64,000 nt of DNA, taken from Lineus longissimus (lineage: Eukaryota > Nemertea > Pilidiophora > Heteronemertea > Lineidae). Positions 3,558 to 34,066 of this stretch are shown piece after piece. How positions within the stretch are numbered: position 1 is the first letter of the stretch; each line of letters starts with the position of its first letter. Position numbers and translations under genes: made by a program. Where the stretch lies: assembly GCF_910592395.1 (NCBI RefSeq), contig NC_088308.1, forward strand, positions 21,837,501 to 21,901,500, given 5' to 3'. The notes under the pieces were generated by a model. The model worked only from the letters and a program-made list of their open reading frames with translations, had not been told where the DNA came from and did no database searches.

Positions 3558-3793
3558 CACCTTCCGGTTCTCGCTTCCGCTTGTTCGACATCTCGCCGGT
3601 AGGGGACTGTTGGACAGGGGCAGCAGCACCATTGGGAGTATGCATCCCGAGTATTCCACTGACGGAGAAGGAGCCGGCTTTCTGCTGGGCTAGTAAGGCA
3701 TCCATGGGAGTAGGCGTCTGTGGCAGGCCTGGACTACCGCTTGGGGAGCCTGGGTTGTGTTTATGCTTTTCGGCAGCTTTGTTTCGTACAATT
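3558..3793 (-). CDS. Pax2/5/8: Pax2/5/8 exon 4: end of paired domain, linker and octapeptide
   Basis: This exon encodes IVRNKAAEKHKHNPGSPS, finishing the last paired-domain helix, then a Pro/Ser/Gly-rich linker (SGSPGLPQTPTPMDALLAQQ), then FSVSGILGM and the basic motif NKRKREPEG. FSVSGILG is the octapeptide (eh1-like, a Groucho/TLE-binding motif) that Pax2/5/8 proteins keep; the vertebrate form is close to YSINGLLG. NKRKRE after it matches KRKRDE of vertebrate Pax2/5/8 and may act as a nuclear localisation signal. Acceptor CTTTCCAG|AATTGTACG and donor GGTG|GTAAGT bound 236 bp, entering in phase 2 and leaving in phase 1. The following exon must carry the residual homeodomain or transactivation region, but I do not recognise one in the remaining 3.5 kb. 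Confidence 0.95.
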
Positions 3794-6700: not shown

Positions 6701-9080
6701 CCCGTGCTGTCGGTGACACGTCTTGAAATAAAACATAAAAGTTTGGAACTACGGACGTCCGGAAAAGAAAACGTTGTAATTTACGTAGCTGTTGCGTGTT
6801 TATTGTAATCAATTTTATTGAGGCTGAAACAATCGGACTGGGTTTAGCCTGATGGCCCAGAGATGATTATCGTACGGGGGGATAAGACGACGGCGCACGC
6901 TCCTGTCTCCAAGTTTCCACTCGGCCGGCAATGGGACAGGGGACGGCTGAATTTAATCACATTATGGTTTTCTCCTTATAAAATCACCCGCTATGTCTGT
7001 TTTTGATCATTCTCCAACCACAATGTCGGATGAAAGGAAGGTGACAAGTCACGTGATGCACAAGTTTAATCTGCGCCAATATAATGGCGCTCTTTCATCA
7101 GCCATCGTCTGCCTAATTGAAATATCTGTTTATCTTAGCTCGGTTCGATAACAAAATGGCATACATCAATCGCATTGTAAGTCTATGAAACCACCATTGT
7201 TTTGCGAGGCGTGTCTGATGAGACTATTTTCTAAATAATCTCCCGTAACTGTTTGAGAATCTGGCGGGCAAGTGAACAGTCACGAATACCAATAATGTCA
7301 CACGAGAATGGCACGTGACGGGCGCTGACCACTCCCAGGGCAGCAGGTAGCAGACGGCGTTGTCTGTTGCTGGTTTCTCTCTTGGCATCAGCGGCCATGC
7401 GCCTCAATAAAAAATGCCATCAACGATCATATGACATCAAACTGCTTGTGTGCCAGTGAAGAATTTGGTGGTAGATTTTGTATTAAAATCTTTTTTGCCT
7501 GAAACTTTTTTCTTTCAGTTGGATCTTTGTTCACATCGTTTAAAGTGAATTAGATTGATTTTAGTAAATCATCAAAGCCAATCCCACACTACCCATGAGT
7601 GGGTTGAGAAAGTCAAGCGAAGTCATACCAGTTCGTGGTGCATCATAGCATTGGTATGCAAGAACAATACTTGTAGCACCATACGATATCCCTGAGAAAG
7701 TACCCCCAAAGTCACGATAGTCCTCATAAACATGGTCACTATGGAGTCAACTGTGGTCACCTTTCCCCCACTCCATGTAAACACCATTCCTAAACATCGT
7801 CTCTTTGTTGTGACAACCAATTGAGAGTGAATTGGATCTCGTGAATCCTCAATTTGGATAGACTGTGGGGGCATTTTGGTTACACCCATTGACCTTTTGA
7901 CTGGATTACGCAATTCATTTCGTGTTACGAAAGACGCTGCAGATTTCACTATCAAATCTTTTGTGCTTGATTGTGGTCTTCAACAACTTTGCCAAATGGC
8001 ACTCAATGGTGGACAGTGATTCTTGCTAAGATGGCCGGACCGTATGGCACCGCTGCAATTCGGACAATCTCGGGACTATTCCAAGCATCTGGACCTTACA
8101 TGGCGACCAAAATAGACGAGGAATGCCGAGTAAAACTTGAAAGCATCGACATAACTTCCACTCGAGTTGTAACGCCAATCGGAAAGTGGAAGGAGATATT
8201 CAAAAAATGTCAACGATGTAACATTTTGACTGTTTAATTGACTTGAAGGAAAGTGACGCCACAGTTTAATGATTTCTCTTCATATTTTCAGTCATTTCTC
8301 GTCCAGACAGTTTATATTTGAATTGAATCGTTTTGAGACAGACGACATCGGAATGGATTTTTATAAAACGTGGAATTACCAGGGCTTTGGAGGGAAAACC
8401 CATGGGATTACAACAGCAATATTGAAAACATGCTTGGAGATAAGGAAGAGAAATGATACTGATACGAATACATTCCAAAACTGTTGATATCAGATGCAAT
8501 TATGGAAAAAAAGAGTTGATGAAAGTTGGAAAATATAAGAATTTCATCAGGGAGTGACATCATATTTTCAGCATCTTGTACAGCCTCTCATGCTACTTCC
8601 GGTCGATGAAGATACAGATTAAACTTATAATAAGCAAGAAGAAAAATACTACATGTAATTTAGGAGAAAATAATATACTCAAGTTTCACCAATCTAAGAC
8701 CGGTTGATTAATAACTACGACATCGAAACAAAGGTCAAGTCGGAACACGACGGTACACGACCGTGTACATCACTTGAATTGAATGCTGATTCAGAACAGG
8801 TCTTAGATAAGTGAAGCTAGCGTATGTACAACGTGTAAAAACAGAACAAAACTTATTATACAAAGATACTAGTTTTCCTTGCATATAGCTCCACCTTTAG
8901 TTGGTTTCTGTTACAACTGATCTGATGCCGACTTGCTGGAATTATTCCATTTTGAAATGGGCAGCAATGGTCGGTGCTATCGATAGGCAAGGAATACCAG
9001 TACATGTGACAGCCAAACAACACCGAAGATAAACGCCATGCGGGAAGTGAGGGTGAGACACCGTACGTTTATCTTCTTAC
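3794..9080 (-). other. Pax2/5/8 intron 3 (exon 3b to exon 4)
   Basis: A 5.3-kb intron bounded by the exon 3b donor and exon 4 acceptor. No convincing coding exon was found. The block around 6900-7120 is richer in CpG and transcription-factor-like words (TCACGTGA at about 7051, AATAATGGCGC-type words at about 7083) than its AT-rich flanks and may be a regulatory element. On 7620-8240 frames are open on both strands (minus 7623-7955, plus 7971-8237) without clear splice sites or known domains; I leave these unassigned. Confidence 0.6.
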
Positions 9081-9278
9081 CTATTAATGGAACTGACGCT
9101 AGGCACGTTCTCCTGGTCACACACCCCTTCAGCCAGCAGCCTGTCCCGGATCTCCCAGGCAAACATAGTCGGGTTCTCCCTCTTGTACTTAGCAATGGCG
9201 TTCACAACCTTCGGCGTAGCCACCTTGGGCTTTGAACCACCGATCACACCGGGTTTAATAGACCCCGTTTCATAATAT
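9081..9278 (-). CDS. Pax2/5/8: Pax2/5/8 exon 3b: consensus-like copy, rest of paired domain
   Basis: This second, downstream exon 3 copy encodes [18 protein letters not shown], the linker and RED subdomain with [18 protein letters not shown], ending SVSSINR. It is closer than 3a to the general Pax2/5/8 consensus, so it is the better candidate for the ancestral exon. It is also 198 bp, entering and leaving in phase 2; acceptor ACAATTTCAG|ATATTATG has a weak pyrimidine tract and donor AATAG|GTAAGA is strong. It joins exon 4 at codon AG|A (Arg), giving SSINR-IVRNKAAEK. Synonymous sites have diverged heavily from 3a: about 14 silent differences against one replacement in the first 25 codons. This points to an old duplication kept under purifying selection. 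Confidence 0.95.
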
Positions 9279-9316
9279 CTGAAATTGTCAATATGATTCA
9301 TGATAAATAACCTTAC
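9279..9316 (-). other. 38-nt spacer between exons 3a and 3b, too short for normal splicing
   Basis: The spacer runs from the exon 3a donor (GTAAGG) to the exon 3b acceptor (TTTCAG). A 38-nt distance leaves little room for U1 snRNP at the donor and U2 at a branch point, which is a known way to make neighbouring exons mutually exclusive. Joining 3a to 3b would not break the frame, because each exon is a whole number of codons, so distance rather than frame must keep them apart. If the spacer were retained, reading on from exon 3a would meet TAA at once (AGG TAA). Any branch point used for exon 3b should lie inside the spacer or in the end of exon 3a. Confidence 0.8.
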
Positions 9317-9514
9317 CTATTTATTGAACTGACACTGGGGACATTTTCTTGTGAACAGACACATTCCGATAGCAGCATATCACGTATTTCCCAGGCAAAC
9401 ATTGTGGGATTCTCAGCTTTGTAATGGAGGATGGCGTCGACAACTTTAGGGGTAGCAACCTTGGGCTTCGAGCCCCCTATCACTCCAGGTCGAATTGACC
9501 CGGTTTCATAGTAC
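9317..9514 (-). CDS. Pax2/5/8: Pax2/5/8 exon 3a: alternative copy, rest of paired domain
   Basis: This is the first exon 3 copy met in transcription. It encodes [18 protein letters not shown], then the RED subdomain with [18 protein letters not shown], ending SVSSINR. It is 198 bp with acceptor TTTCCAG|GTACTATG and donor AATAG|GTAAGG, entering and leaving in phase 2, so it joins exon 2 and exon 4 in frame. Compared with copy 3b it differs at 9 of 66 residues. It departs from family consensus at RDM (usually RDR), SEC (usually AEG), VCS (usually VCD) and YKA (usually YKR or similar). The changes fall in and around the first two RED helices. The linker after the PAI subdomain and the last helix (VPSVSSINR) are unchanged apart from one Lys/Arg swap. 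There is no stop or indel, so it is not decaying. Confidence 0.93.
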
Positions 9515-12500
9515 CTGGAAACATACATATGAGCTCCTGATGTACTGGCATTTTTAAAAGTTTGTTAGTATTTTTGAATCAGAACCGTTGTTAGTAGAAG
9601 AGACGTGTCGTGGTAAAATCATGATAAGTATAGAAAGGGTATTTACGCTATGGGATTTTAAATATTCAATTACAGATTAAATTTTTAAAATTTTTAACGA
9701 ACGTTGTAGGCCTTTAAAGCAAAATATGTCAATTATATGAATCTGGGTTGATACGAGGTGCCAACTTCTACATGTAAGTTGATATCTCCAAGGAGCGCCA
9801 ACTGACCATTTAACGACAAAAAAGTCATGTTCAAGCCATTTTGCACTGCAAAGCTTCAGTCGTAATTATTTCATGTTTTTAAAGGGGCTAGGATCGGACC
9901 AATTTAAAAAAGCTTACACCATTGGAGAGGGTTTAATGTCAACTTGAGAACGCTGTGTACAAACATAGTTGACGGACGCCTGACATCAAGTGACCACAAG
10001 GGGCAACACTGTCATACTGATTTAGTTTGAAGAGTCGGTTGAAGTTATTTTTGTCTGTCATTTTGGCCCTTCAATTTATTTATTTTTCTCAATCAGTAGA
10101 AATCGAAGAGCAGGTTATACTAAAATCTGCTCTACACAAGTATTGTTTTGACATTAAATGAAAGTATGCATTACAAAACTGGTCTGAAGCGGAACTCAGT
10201 CATCACGGGATCAGCATCAAAGGATGTGACGTCAGAAAAGCACTGAAAAATTGAAGTTTCACTCTTCAGTTTTTCTGTATTGTACCAGAATTGGACCAAC
10301 TCCTACCACTGGAAGTTGTAGTCTGCAAAACGTACTCTATGGAAATAATGTAACATGTCGTGGTGTTATAATTTATAAAACAAGCCAATTTAAAGAATAA
10401 GCGTTGTCGGTTGAAGAGGACCTGGTGACATCCGAGTCTACAAGGTGGTCCCCGAGGATCAAGTATAAGTACGCCTCTTGACCACTCTTGACAGCCTTCT
10501 CTGTAATCATCGCGCGGTATTATTCCCAGGTATGGCGGTGGTGTCTGGTCACCCGCATGAGGAGGCCAGCAGACCAAAAATTATAGCAATTTTGTCAAAA
10601 TATCCACCGCCACAACATTTACTAAACGTTTTAAAAATCTGTAACATCTGTATGTCAGATTATTCTGATCAAATATAAGATGGCAGTTGACTATTTTTGT
10701 CATTTTATACCCCATATGGGTAACAAACAAAAGATCGCTACAGATACCCTAATGAGAATATTGTCTGCGTAAGCCTGTCCACCTGTTTTTGGCAAAGATA
10801 GTGGTTGAAATCATTTTTTTATTGTACTTAAAGTTATGTGTTTAAGTAGATCCAGGTGCAAGCTTATAACACTTGTCATCTGATTATTATGACGCTTAGA
10901 TTTGCTGAGGATCGGTATGGCACTTAAAATGTTCGGTGGATTTGCATCATAAATTTTAAGTCTATCCAAGTACGTCAATTCATTGAATAGGCCTAGGCCC
11001 TAGAACCTGGTGGGTTTGTCAACGTGGGTAACCAACCTTGATATGTAGGCACACGGGTCTAGACAAGGCGCAGTGTGTTTGTGCAATGACTTATCTATGA
11101 TCTGTTTAAAATTTACCAATGATTAGGTATGTCTAAAGGCAAATCCGAATTCGACCATAAAAAGGAAGATTGATTTTCAAAATTGTCGTATTGTAGCCTT
11201 TTAAGTAGTTTTAAACAAAAGCTGTACTTAAAAGGGAAATGATTTTGCTTAGTTCCAGACACCTGTTGTCTTAAATGCAGGGTAAAATATGTATTCTGTA
11301 TTATTATCCGTCGCATCTGTCCAACATCAACGTTAATACTTCAAAACGAAATGACATTGTTTCTAATGAAATATGCATAGGGTACGATTTACTATTATGC
11401 AGTTGGTAAATTAAATCTTTACATTAAAATGATGAGGCCTGTTGCGCATTTGGAATGCTCCGAGTGCTTAAATCTGCAATTTATATGAAGACGGGAATTA
11501 ATGCGTTTGTATGAAAACAATGACAATGACTAAGAAGGTATGTGATTGAATTGGTCTCTGTCGGTTTTACATCCTGCGAGTTATGAATCATTATGAAAAT
11601 ATGGATTATTCAAAGTTTTGTTATACCATGTATATTATTGTACTCACAAACGTAAACTAACTTTTAAATGAAGAAACTGCTTTAATTTTGGAGCAGCGGG
11701 TCTCAATCTGGCACTGTGAGTAAAGAAAACGAAAGTAAAAAACGCCCTGGCCGAAAACAGCATTCACAACGCATCCAAACATCTGGCTTGCAAGAATAGT
11801 TGAACAACAACTAAAAATTCGTCGCCGAAATATCAACAAATAAGACATTTTCACAAGTTAGAAATAAAGGAAAGTACTTCTCCGTTTAATCTAAAACTTA
11901 ATTAGTGTAATCACGTACTTAATGGACTGCGACAAATGACATTTTAAGTGGCGTTGATATCCATTTAGCGGCGTCCATTTCATACTGGACATTACAACGC
12001 GCCAGCTAGTCGTTCCCAATTTCTGTCATTACAGCAGTTAATGACCTGACTGTGGTTTGATTCGACTCTTGTTGGCAGCACTGATAAACTGTATCACGTT
12101 ACGAGAGTTGACAAACCGCAAAATGTTAATTAGGAGGAAAGCTTTGAAAATTCGATAATTACTATGAGTTTGAGATTGTTAATTACACTATACATGTATA
12201 TGTTGCAAGTATTGTCGATTAAAGACTTTGGGGTCGTAGAATCATTTGGGAATTAACGCAATTTCCTTTGCCTTTGAATTGACTTGATATGGAACTTTGC
12301 GTTATATTTGATAAAACTATTCCAGGACAATTTACCCCAATACTTAGCGATAGTAAACGTTCAGTAAGAAATTCCCGGAAATGTGGTTTCTAGTATTTTT
12401 TACACGGTCTTCGAAAGGAATTGAAGCAATGGCGACAACTTATTGTACAAGAGGAAAAACACATTTAATTGATGCACATAACTTACACCATCCTTTTATT

Positions 12501-13045: not shown

Positions 13046-13211
13046 CTTCCCAATATTTTGCTGACGCATCCATGTGATACTCTGAGTTGTCTTGAGATGT
13101 CACACGGCCGGACCCCTTGGTGGGCCAACTCCACAATCCGCTGCCGGACCACATCGGGTAGGGGCCGCCCGTTGACGAAGACCCCTCCGAGCTGGTTGAC
13201 ACCCCCATGGC
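13046..13211 (-). CDS. Pax2/5/8: Pax2/5/8 exon 2: N-terminal (PAI) half of the paired domain
   Basis: This exon encodes [19 protein letters not shown] and continues through [20 protein letters not shown] to [11 protein letters not shown]. It covers the beta-hairpin and the three helices of the PAI subdomain, which contact DNA in the minor and major grooves. The match to vertebrate and invertebrate Pax2/5/8 is essentially complete with no frame break. Splice sites are clear: acceptor TCTTTTCAG|GCCATG and donor GGAAG|GTAAGA. The 166-bp length equals that of the matching vertebrate Pax2/5/8 exon as I recall it. It enters in phase 1 and leaves in phase 2. The first exons at 16.9 and 32.1 kb both match its entry phase, and the two exon 3 copies both match its exit phase. 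Class assignment rests on HGGVNQLGG and [12 protein letters not shown] and is very secure. Confidence 0.97.
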
Positions 13212-17400: not shown

Positions 17401-18614
17401 TGCTAAACATTTCAACAGAAGTGATAGTCCAATTGAAAAGCGATAAAATCAAATGATGCGTCTATCGAGTACTCTATGATGCGACCAGTTCAATGGCCCT
17501 CAACTGGTTTGCGTGAGTACTCTTATCCTTGGGAGGTGTATGCTGGGGAAGAAGCAAGGACATTGTCAGTGTTGCGCCACGGAAAATCTTTATAGAATGT
17601 TTCCAATGAGAAGTTACAGGGTTTAAGAGCACTGACCATGGTTAACCGTGACACAGCATTGGGTCGGGTGTGAGAACATCTCCTGGACCTCATGGTCTTA
17701 TACTCCCTTTAAATGTTGGGCTCATATTCTTAATCTTGAGAAGGCGCACACATCTTGGTTGTCAGGATAGTGCGAGAATTGTTCAAACGGCGTGGGGCTC
17801 AGTGAGTGGTACTAGCAATAGCGAAAGCAAGGACGTGTTGAGCAGAGTAAAAAACAATCTGCTTCAGCTTCAGATTGAAATTGGTCAACCAAAGACACCA
17901 ACAGAGTAGAAACCACGAAATAAACATTTTCATGTCATTGGTTTATAATTTTAACCGATTTATATCCATCATTTGCTTTTGGGAACAATCAACGCGTGAC
18001 CCGATGAAACAGTGTGCATTTTTGCATTACTGACCTAATGACCCAGATACGATTTAGGGTTTGGCCTCAAAGCCCGTGGGAAAACCGCTGTGAGCCAAAA
18101 GACACGAGAAACACTCCAACATCGTCCGTTGAAAAAGTTGGACGTGCAACAACATGGAATTGTCGCTAAATACCTTATCTATTAGAATAACACAGATTTG
18201 TCAAGGGTTTGCCCTCGCCTGCTGCTACCATCTTATGCAGATTTGTACCACAGATGGGTTTGAAATACAATGGGTGATTGGTTGTTAAACGAGATGACGC
18301 AATTTGAAGTGGGGGTAATGGTGAGTGACAGAGAGTGTTGTTTTCTTTCATATGAATCAATTTTAACAAATCGTCGGATATGTTTGGGTCAGGTTTTAAC
18401 TCGAATATACAGAATCTGAACACGCGTAGTCAGGTATTATAAGTCGTCAGAAAACAAGCTGGTACCATTATCTGAGGCTCTTGCAAAACGTTGCGTAAGT
18501 GTCGAGGTGCAAGTGTAACGATTATGTTGAAAAATCTAACATATTCGATGATGCACACCAATGAACCCTTTGGTGATTGCCTTATATGGAATAATGATAA
18601 CTGGTGTTAGTAGC
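17401..18614. other. Upstream of exon 1B: no gene seen
   Basis: This stretch lies between the proximal promoter block and the 37-bp minisatellite. Open frames at 17670-17909 (plus) and 18175-18423 (minus) have no splice support or recognisable domain. If exon 1A is real, all of it is intron of the distal Pax transcript. Confidence 0.5.
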
Positions 18615-19257
18615 GAAGGCAATAACCACTGGCCTGAGGTTTCATGTTAGAGAAGGCAATGACCACTAGCCTGAAGTTTCCTGTTGAGGAAGGCAATAAC
18701 CACTGGCCTGAGGTTTCATGTTAGAGAAGGCAATGACCACTAGCCTGATGTTTCCTGTTGAGGAAGGCAATAACCACTGGCCTGAGGTTTCATGTTAGAG
18801 AAGGCAATGACCACTAGCCTGATGTTTCCTGTTGAGGAAGGCAATAACCACTGGCCTGAGGTTTCATGTTAGAGAAGGCAATGACCACTGGCCTGATGTT
18901 TCCTGTTGAGGAAGGCAATAACCACTGGCCTGAGGTTTCATGTTAGAGAAGGCAGTGCCCACTGGCTTCCTGTTTGGGAAGGCAATGACCACTGGCCTGA
19001 TGTTTCCTGTTGAGGAAGGCAATAACCACTGGCCTGAGGTTTCATGTCAGAGAAGGCAATGACCACTGGCCTGATGTTTCCTGTTAGGGAAGGCAATGAC
19101 CACTGGCTTGAGGTTTCATGTTAGAGAAGGCAATGACCACTGGCCTGATATTTCCTGTTAGGGAAGGCAATGACCACTGGCCTGATGTTTCCTGTTGGGG
19201 AAGGCAATGACCACTGGCTTGAGGTTTCATGTTAGCGATGACCACTGGCCTGAGGTT
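18615..19257. repeat. 37-bp minisatellite, about 17 copies, with a 74-bp higher-order dimer
   Basis: Tandem units of 37 bp read GAAGGCAATRACCACTGGCC followed by TGAKGTTTCMTGTTRRG. Two subtypes alternate for most of the array: one with AATAACC, CTGAGG and TTTCATGTTAGA, the other with AATGACC, CTGATG and TTTCCTGTTGAG. The effective repeat is therefore a 74-bp dimer, implying expansion of a two-unit block. The right end is less regular, with one shortened unit near 18960 and another near 19235. Because 37 is not a multiple of three the array shifts frame at each unit, so it does not encode a repeat protein. It lies about 1.6-2.3 kb upstream of the exon 1B start. Confidence 0.97.
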
Positions 19258-32342: not shown

Positions 32343-33937
32343 TGACGAGTTCTTTTTGCCAGAACTGCATGTAATTTCGCAGCTCATGAAAGATAGAGAC
32401 GGATATAGTTTCTCCGAATTTTCCGTGTTGGTTTTCCTGACAAAAGTTGGATAAAAGTAGTCAAAGATATGAACTGCACATCCTGATATCACCAAAAGAA
32501 AAGTGTTAAGTTCTCCAAACTCTTCACTCTAATAAATTTCCAAAAATCGAACAGTACATTTAAGCGTTTGACGAGTTTCAAAAGTAGGAGATGGGTTGGC
32601 AAAGATGAAGGTAGAGTGGTATATATTCCAAGGAAGTTTGAAGAAAGATGTCAACAAAAATTCTCTGATTAGTTGATGTCTTCTATTCTCCAATGGTGGT
32701 TGATCCCCAGAGATGCCACTTGAAACAATAAGGGGCAAGGAACGCCGTGGCAACGACAAAGGCAGACTTAATCCTCAGCTGAAACTGTACGCTTGTCACG
32801 ACATTTACGTTTCCGCCGCGGGAAAAGTCAATGTTTTTCACCTTGAACGTGTACGTCTTGCCCGAAATGTTGACTCAATGTTTCCGTACTGGTCGCCAAC
32901 AGGTTGTCACCTATGCCAGGAATGTACGCCGGCGAGATGAAATCACCAACTTCTTCATCAAAATGCACAATTTGTCCCCATCATGCTAATGAGTGTAACT
33001 GATACCCGGGGCAGGCGCCGCCAAATCAAGACACATTCCCGAGTAATCTGTGGGGAGAATTTACCAGAGAAGACATCAGTCAGAGCAATAGGAGGAACTG
33101 AATGGTCACTAAATCAAACTGGGTCCATTTCCACCGGATTATACAGTGTTATCCAACATGAATTGATATAAATAATGTTACATTGAAAGTTGAAAATGTC
33201 TCCACTAATGACTTTGCGGTAAATATGCCATAAACTCCATCAGAGTGCAGGAAGTGCCCCACGAGACAATGACTCGAAGTGAAAGTTCAATTTGAAGAAT
33301 TTGCCCGATTTTCCTTTTAAATCCCACGGCCCTGTGTCTTATGAGCAATTGTCTCAGGAAGAGTCAGTTGTAAATTACACCTGAACATGAAATGGCATCA
33401 ACACTCGAATGGTTTAAAATATTAAGTTTGTCCAGTTCGTTACGCTTTGTCAACCGCCTGATGGGCATTTAGATCATTCTAAACTCTAAAATAACAGATT
33501 ATCATCCAAAAATAGTCCCCTCGGAATATTCATTTTGATCCAATCATGTTTATTTTCCACAAAGCGTTGTGGTACGAGCCATTTTTTAATTGGCCATATA
33601 CGAGCCTAACGAGCTTTGTCTGGGCTTATTCTTCTCAGAGTGACTTTCGGACTCACCTAGATCAAGCTTTAGTATTTTGCACCAAAAACACGGTGGTCCT
33701 AAGGGGATTAATCCCCCCTCGTATATAAAAATCATCTAACATTACCACAAACGCCGTAAAAGTCACCGCGCAGATTTTTATCGAAAGCCTATTAAGTGTA
33801 ACCAAGTGAAAGAATGTCTCACCAGTTGACCAAGCCTTGTTTGACACGAGGTAAAAAAAGTGCTGAGACTTTGACACAAAGTTTGATGAGACCCTTCCCA
33901 AGTTATTGACGGAACTTCTCAACCAAAAGATGTAAAA
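32343..33937 (-). promoter_or_regulatory. Region upstream of distal exon 1A, candidate distal promoter
   Basis: On the minus strand this precedes exon 1A. The part at about 32730-33080 is clearly richer in CpG than its surroundings (GGAACGCCGTGGCAACG and CCGCCGCGGG words) and could hold the distal Pax promoter or an enhancer. No TATA box or start site can be assigned with confidence. If transcription starts here, intervening 5'UTR exons may exist that I cannot see. Confidence 0.3.
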
Positions 33938-34066
33938 CGGCGCGAGTCTGTGGTTTTATCGTTGTCTAGAGGGTAAACCGGCGCGAGTCTGTGGTTTTAT
34001 CGTTGTCTAAAGGGTAAACCGGTGCGAGTCTGTGGTTTTATCGTTGTCTAAAGGGTAAACCGGTGC
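33938..34066. repeat. 41-bp tandem repeat, three copies
   Basis: Three full units begin CGGYGCGAGTCTGTGGTTTT and continue ATCGTTGTCTARAGGGTAAAC, with a six-base start of a fourth. Copies 2 and 3 are nearly identical and copy 1 differs by about two bases, so the expansion is recent. The repeat lies in non-coding sequence upstream of exon 1A. Confidence 0.95.

Follow-up and report, generated by a model that had tools for sequence, protein, structure and literature searches.

Pax2/5/8 regulates sensory and neural development, and its paired domain has stayed nearly constant over very long periods. The Pax2/5/8 gene on chromosome 1 of the ribbon worm Lineus longissimus (Nemertea) carries the exon that encodes the RED half of this domain twice in a row. 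Are the two copies alternatives to one another and, if so, what would their exchange do to the protein? Judging from the sequence, we consider it probable that the RED exon of a single Pax2/5/8 gene has been duplicated in tandem and that the copies are used as mutually exclusive exons.

Layout of the Gene

The gene lies on the minus strand of the window, by which we mean the whole stretch of 64,000 nucleotides that was analysed (C1:21837501-21901500). The features that the argument needs are the following.

Exon 2, 13046..13211, minus strand: 166 bp; PAI subdomain, common to both forms; 3' end ...GGA AG
Two perfect TACTAAC just upstream of 3A, 9564..9596 (5' ends 9596 and 9570), minus strand: candidate branch points or regulator sites
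Exon 3A (upstream copy), 9317..9514, minus strand: 198 bp; linker, RED helices 4 and 5 and the start of helix 6; apparently the derived version
Intron between 3A and 3B, 9279..9316, minus strand: 38 nt; GT...AG
Exon 3B (downstream copy), 9081..9278, minus strand: 198 bp; apparently the ordinary Pax2/5/8 RED version
Exon 4, 3558..3793, minus strand: end of the paired domain, octapeptide-like FSVSGILG, KRKRE stretch; opens A ATT GTA; 3' boundary predicted only

The paired domain matches PF00292 with 236.7 bits in the 3A form and 246.9 bits in the 3B form (cut-off 22), and the solved relatives closest to the 3A form are Pax5, then Pax8, Pax6 and Prd. In exon 4, FSVSGILG followed by KRKREPE corresponds to the octapeptide and the KR-rich/diacid signal of lophotrochozoan members, although FSVSGILG matches Y[TS]IX2ILG only loosely (F replaces Y, and V replaces I). 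Further coding exons, assigned by eye, likely continue past the left end of the window. A query with the approximate tail of a vertebrate Pax2 gave one believable match downstream, and none of the three downstream exons proposed by eye has a Pfam match. Exon 1 was not located. No partial homeodomain was recognised downstream of exon 4; the available portion of one source describes it as absent from every lophotrochozoan Pax2/5/8 surveyed (PMC5333810), and that of another reports it in Pax2/5/8 of three molluscs (PMC4625944).

Divergence and Selection of the Two Exons

The first-pass annotation had described two 198-bp exons with identical phases, intact splice sites and uninterrupted frames, and all of these properties were found at the coordinates listed above. 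The copies align without a gap; they are preceded by TTTCCAG (3A) and TTTCAG (3B) and followed by GTAAGG and GTAAGA, respectively, and the frame is kept from exon 2 into exon 4 through either of them. They are identical at 145/198 nucleotides (73%) and at 56/65 residues. Of the 65 complete codons, 23 are identical, 33 differ silently and 9 carry a replacement; the nine replacements given earlier stand, with their denominator corrected from 66, which includes the split arginine codon, to 65. Silent differences had been claimed for over half of the first 25 codons, and 14 of the 25 have one. At four-fold sites, 19 of 28 comparable positions differ. The NG86 method yields a dN of 0.106 with dS not computable owing to saturation, and maximum likelihood yields a dN of 0.09 with a dS of 6.8, i.e., likewise saturated. 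When the 52 within-codon changes were placed at random on 3B in 20,000 runs, every run altered at least 23 amino acids, against the nine observed, and a stop codon arose in 81% of the runs. The 33 silently differing codons indicate that both copies of exon 3 have long been kept by selection, and the earlier claim of a tandem exon 3 duplication in Pax2/5/8 with both copies under long purifying selection is upheld.

Tandem copies are a classical assembly error, and one could suspect that two alleles or paralogues were placed side by side. However, such an artefact, which the first-pass annotation had named as a possible refutation, is extremely unlikely, as the copies differ at 53/198 nucleotides with functional splice sites on both, as a single Pax2/5/8 locus was found in the genome, and as the assembly was made from 79-fold PacBio reads with haplotypic duplications purged, according to the available part of its published description (PMC8593623).

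The genome search covered the 391,118,348-base assembly in 30 contigs, and its counts are lower bounds. It returned at least nine PAX matches: three are exon 2, 3A and 3B, and the other six lie at five places, which we named by eye as Pax3/7, Pax6, Pax1/9, PoxN and Pax-beta types. Neither a second Pax2/5/8 gene nor a third copy of exon 3 is among the at least nine matches listed, and a third copy is also absent from the window plus 30 kb downstream. No doubled RED exon was seen at the other Pax matches; for the Pax gene on contig C7, the remaining RED part was not located within 10 kb. The divergent Pax gene at L015 4505-5658, which by eye is of the Pax-beta type, has its paired domain spread over three exons.

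Splicing of Exons 3A and 3B

The intron between the two exons measures 38 nucleotides, a feature absent from the first-pass annotation. Any branch point in it would be less than 38 nucleotides from the 3A donor, which makes the joining of 3A to 3B unlikely. Candidates of the yUnAy type are found 25 and 9 nucleotides before exon 3B, less than 30 nucleotides from this donor. A survey of human mutually exclusive exons, in the portion available (PMC5740500), treats donor-to-branch-point distances below 50 bp as potential steric interference and counts 57 cases in 629 clusters. This limit is a human value that may not hold for the present genome; every base of the 38-nucleotide intron would fall below it as a branch point, and 3A and 3B are homologous neighbouring exons of equal length and phase. 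Among all GT sites in 8700-9900, scored with an approximate matrix, the 3A and 3B donors come out on top (9.94 and 9.39; the next reaches 6.47). The pyrimidine content of the 20 nucleotides before the AG is 0.55 for 3A and 0.50 for 3B, compared to 0.75 for exons 2 and 4; weak tracts at the 3A and 3B acceptors are as expected for regulated exons. With so short an intron, and with the donors of both exons outranking all others in the region, mutually exclusive use of 3A and 3B appears most likely.

Alternatively, both exons might be included and the 38-nucleotide intron spliced out, adding 66 residues and producing a paired domain with two RED subdomains. The reading frame would be preserved, both exons being multiples of three; very short introns exist, and a limit derived from human genes need not apply to all animals. 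Nevertheless, we regard this outcome as quite improbable, as the yUnAy candidates lie so close to the donor and as two complete RED copies occur in none of the best 120 of 450 matches, from a search that covered proteins of about 36 to 114 residues. Retention of the intron would place a TAA immediately after the AGG at the end of 3A.

If the exons are mutually exclusive, then the joining of exon 2 to 3A would leave the 3A donor and the 3B branch point to clash within 38 nucleotides, and 3A would be joined to exon 4; otherwise exon 2 would join 3B, and 3A would be lost within the intron. The two acceptors, both weak, would then compete, and proteins bound to the TACTAAC sites upstream of 3A might decide the outcome. 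These are candidate regulator sites because STAR proteins such as QKI/HOW recognise ACUAAY. TACTAAC occurs in the window five times on the minus strand and four times on the plus strand; two of the minus-strand five are those upstream of 3A, 26 nucleotides apart, and they form the only pair of ACTAAY at most 30 nucleotides apart on either strand. A third minus-strand TACTAAC is located about 80 nucleotides before exon 4.

The true start of 3A may differ from the one listed, as three other AGs occur within 30 nucleotides upstream and a branch-point-like site lies 20 nucleotides before the first of these. The AG 30 nucleotides upstream of 3A defines a candidate in-frame extension of ten residues (9515-9544, minus strand) at the PAI/linker border, which is where vertebrate insertion isoforms also lie. 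If the nearer TACTAAC served as branch point, then the first AG after it would add these ten residues before 3A; by eye, the extension is absent from P0003, an exon from another source that is described below.

A docking and selector RNA structure was considered and rejected, as three pairings of the flanks were no better than 100 dinucleotide shuffles each (fractions 0.29, 0.59 and 0.15). A 13-nucleotide inverted repeat with one mismatch (G-U in the RNA) flanks the 3A-3B pair at 8993-9005/9540-9552, about what chance would produce by a rough reckoning.

Relatives of the Two Exons and Age of the Duplication

The best 120 of 450 matches to 3A gave 67 distinct exon stretches which, together with three solved structures, form a comparison set of 70 rows; this set leans towards 3A, which was the query. 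Within exon 3, 38/65 positions are invariant in 54 aligned sequences. Among the rows compared, the nearest to 3B is P0024 (62/65 residues), and the rare residue of 3B, N26, occurs in 1/70 other rows. In 3A, L29, M46 and C51 are each found in one of the 70 other rows, H30 in two and A33 in none. In these comparisons 3B appears as the ordinary version and 3A as the derived one.

The five rare residues of 3A (29, 30, 33, 46 and 51) and a GC3 below that of 3B (0.45 vs. 0.65) could also mean that 3A is hardly used and represents a functionless old copy, or one that is spliced in as noise. We find this very doubtful: silently differing codons outnumber replacements 33 to 9 with silent sites saturated, 3A has no stop, intact splice sites and the best donor of the region, and a similar exon exists in another source. 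The latter, P0003, is an ORF on a 766-base contig that agrees with 3A at 58/65 residues and has L29 and M46 in common with it, which are found in no other of the 70 rows (M46 in 2/72 rows, 3A and P0003). The tree, built on 65 columns, pairs 3A with P0003 at 97/78, with the SH-aLRT below the mark of 80 and the bootstrap unsettled. By identity P0004 is nearer to 3A (59/65 residues) than P0003 is, and it is without L29 and M46. The P0003 sequence suggests that a 3A-like exon is present in another organism.

A second case may come from the isopod Idotea baltica, where the predicted protein P0001 (GTU68_026734, 104 aa, on a 7,951-base contig) has the start of one exon 3 (SIRPG), followed by a full one (SYKAG). 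The first copy ends after KPKV, and the record is flagged UNVERIFIED_CONTAM. No other double occurs among the best 120 of 450 matches, and P0001 perhaps reflects a tandem exon 3 in an isopod.

One could go further and place the duplication of the RED exon at an early point in the history of protostomes or bilaterians. It would have produced one version with D54 and another, less basic, with S/T54, spliced in a mutually exclusive manner; ribbon worms and perhaps isopods would have kept both, flies the S54 type and vertebrates the D54 type. Sarcophaga P0044 is of the S54 type, and Pax5 and Pax8 are of the D54 type. The tree is compatible with this scenario but does not demonstrate it, the S/T54 and D54 rows not forming two clades, and we regard so early a duplication as a tentative and unlikely idea. 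If it were true, then swapping the RED half would be an ancient equivalent of the way in which vertebrates disable the PAI half.

What the Proposed Exchange Would Change in the RED Subdomain

The residues replaced between 3A and 3B are located in the linker (8), in helix 4 (26, 29, 30 and 33), in helix 5 (46 and 49) and in the turn before helix 6 (51 and 54), and the recognition helix of the RED subdomain is identical in both. At positions 30, 33 and 46, 3B has K, R and R, and 3A has H, A and M. Over the 65 residues, the net charge is -1 in 3A, 0 in P0003, +2 in 3B and Pax5, and +1 in Pax8.

The predicted model of the 3A exon folds as a RED subdomain. It has helices at 22-34, 40-49 and 61-64, a mean pLDDT of 76.8 (below 50 for residues 1-15) and a pTM of 0.58, and its five PDB matches under an E of 0.001 are all paired domains, from Pax5 (two chains), Pax6, Pax8 and Prd. 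The rmsd amounts to 8 to 12 A over the whole exon, because the linker is not fixed, and to 2.5 A against the RED part alone (1k78_I).

With the recognition helix unchanged and basic side chains lost at 30, 33 and 46, 3A would be expected to alter the affinity or the partners of the RED half rather than its base code. The 3B form would act as an ordinary paired domain, and the 3A form would have a weaker or re-weighted RED half, leaving binding more PAI-led, or would engage other partners. The first-pass annotation had proposed two DNA-binding specificities or affinities; of these, only the affinity part is favoured, the recognition helix being identical in both forms.

The charge argument is soft, as 57/70 other rows have a net charge of 0 or +1, so that 3B itself is more basic than most; 5/70 are as negative as 3A or more so. 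Basic residues are found at position 30 in 32/70 rows, at 33 in 45/70 and at 46 in 68/70. Where no more than one of the positions 30, 33 and 46 is basic, which is so in ten rows, position 54 is always S, T or N, compared to 32 of the 60 others, in counts unweighted for kinship.

An explanation that overlaps with the favoured one except in its last step is that the exons are alternative, and 3A changes protein partners or stability instead of DNA affinity. None of the nine changes falls in the recognition helix, and C51 and M46 might contribute to contacts or to packing, both of which would fit. However, three of the nine changes (30, 33 and 46) swap a basic side chain for a non-basic or weakly basic one, and loss of basic side chains would be a usual way to weaken backbone contacts. 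An effect confined to partners or stability seems somewhat unlikely to us.

Comparison with Known Systems

Alpha-tropomyosin has mutually exclusive tandem exons separated by a short intron, and FOXP1 exons 18 and 18b are mutually exclusive homologous exons that alter DNA-contacting residues in a developmental regulator. FOXP1 differs from the present case in that the domain is a forkhead, the animals are vertebrates, and the recognition residues are changed. Clusters of the alpha-tropomyosin type, like those of the human survey in its available part (PMC5740500), similarly consist of neighbouring duplicates of equal length and phase with a donor too near the next branch point; what would be swapped in Lineus, however, is half of a paired DNA-binding domain. 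The word PAX is absent from the main text of that survey.

Vertebrate Pax6(5a), Pax8(S), and medaka Pax2.1(2a+) and Pax2.2(ext24+) also involve paired-domain splicing near the border of exons 2 and 3, but in these isoforms, as set out in part of the source (PMC4488758), residues are inserted in or near PAI helix 3 and the PAI half is impaired, whereas in Lineus it is the RED half that would be exchanged, with no insertion. In keeping with this difference, 3A has no extra residues relative to 3B at the border of PAI helix 3 and the linker, which a 5a-type isoform would have. The same partial source describes chordate Pax2/5/8 paired-domain splicing as insertion, extension, deletion or skipping, and gives single forms in the PAI-RED part for amphioxus (PMC4488758). 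Drosophila eyeless Ey(2a) likewise has regulated paired-domain splicing that changes DNA binding, but there, in the part of the report available (PMC1803029), 60 residues are inserted where the paired domain begins, and nothing is exchanged.

Among lophotrochozoans, Mytilus galloprovincialis resembles Lineus in having several forms of Pax2/5/8. Its six isoforms differ from ours in that the sequence preceding the paired domain divides them into two groups, which may stem from two genes plus splicing, and exon 3 is not mentioned in the available part of the account (PMC5333810). The words splice, isoform and exon are absent from a molluscan Pax study (PMC4625944). In the portions of these sources covered by a narrow literature check (PMC4488758, PMC5333810 and PMC4625944), there is no report of an exchanged RED exon. 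The mechanism, tandem mutually exclusive exons, is known; within the limits of this partial check, its proposed use in a paired domain appears to be new.

If the proposed use of 3A and 3B is correct, one developmental regulator would be produced in two forms from one gene via the choice of an exon. Invertebrates would then have an alternative to the paralogues (Pax2, Pax5 and Pax8) through which vertebrates diversified. It would also offer a natural experiment on the contribution of the RED half, with two forms that have nine differences and a constant recognition helix.

Other Observations in the Window

Scans of the window with Rfam (gathering threshold) and for tRNAs gave no matches, and a search of viral contigs gave nine pattern matches, none of them a relative. 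A short tandem array at 33932-34063 consists of 3.2 copies of a 41-bp unit with 96% matches. Upstream of the located Pax2/5/8 exons, a minisatellite at 18611-19235 repeats a 37-bp unit in about 17 copies.
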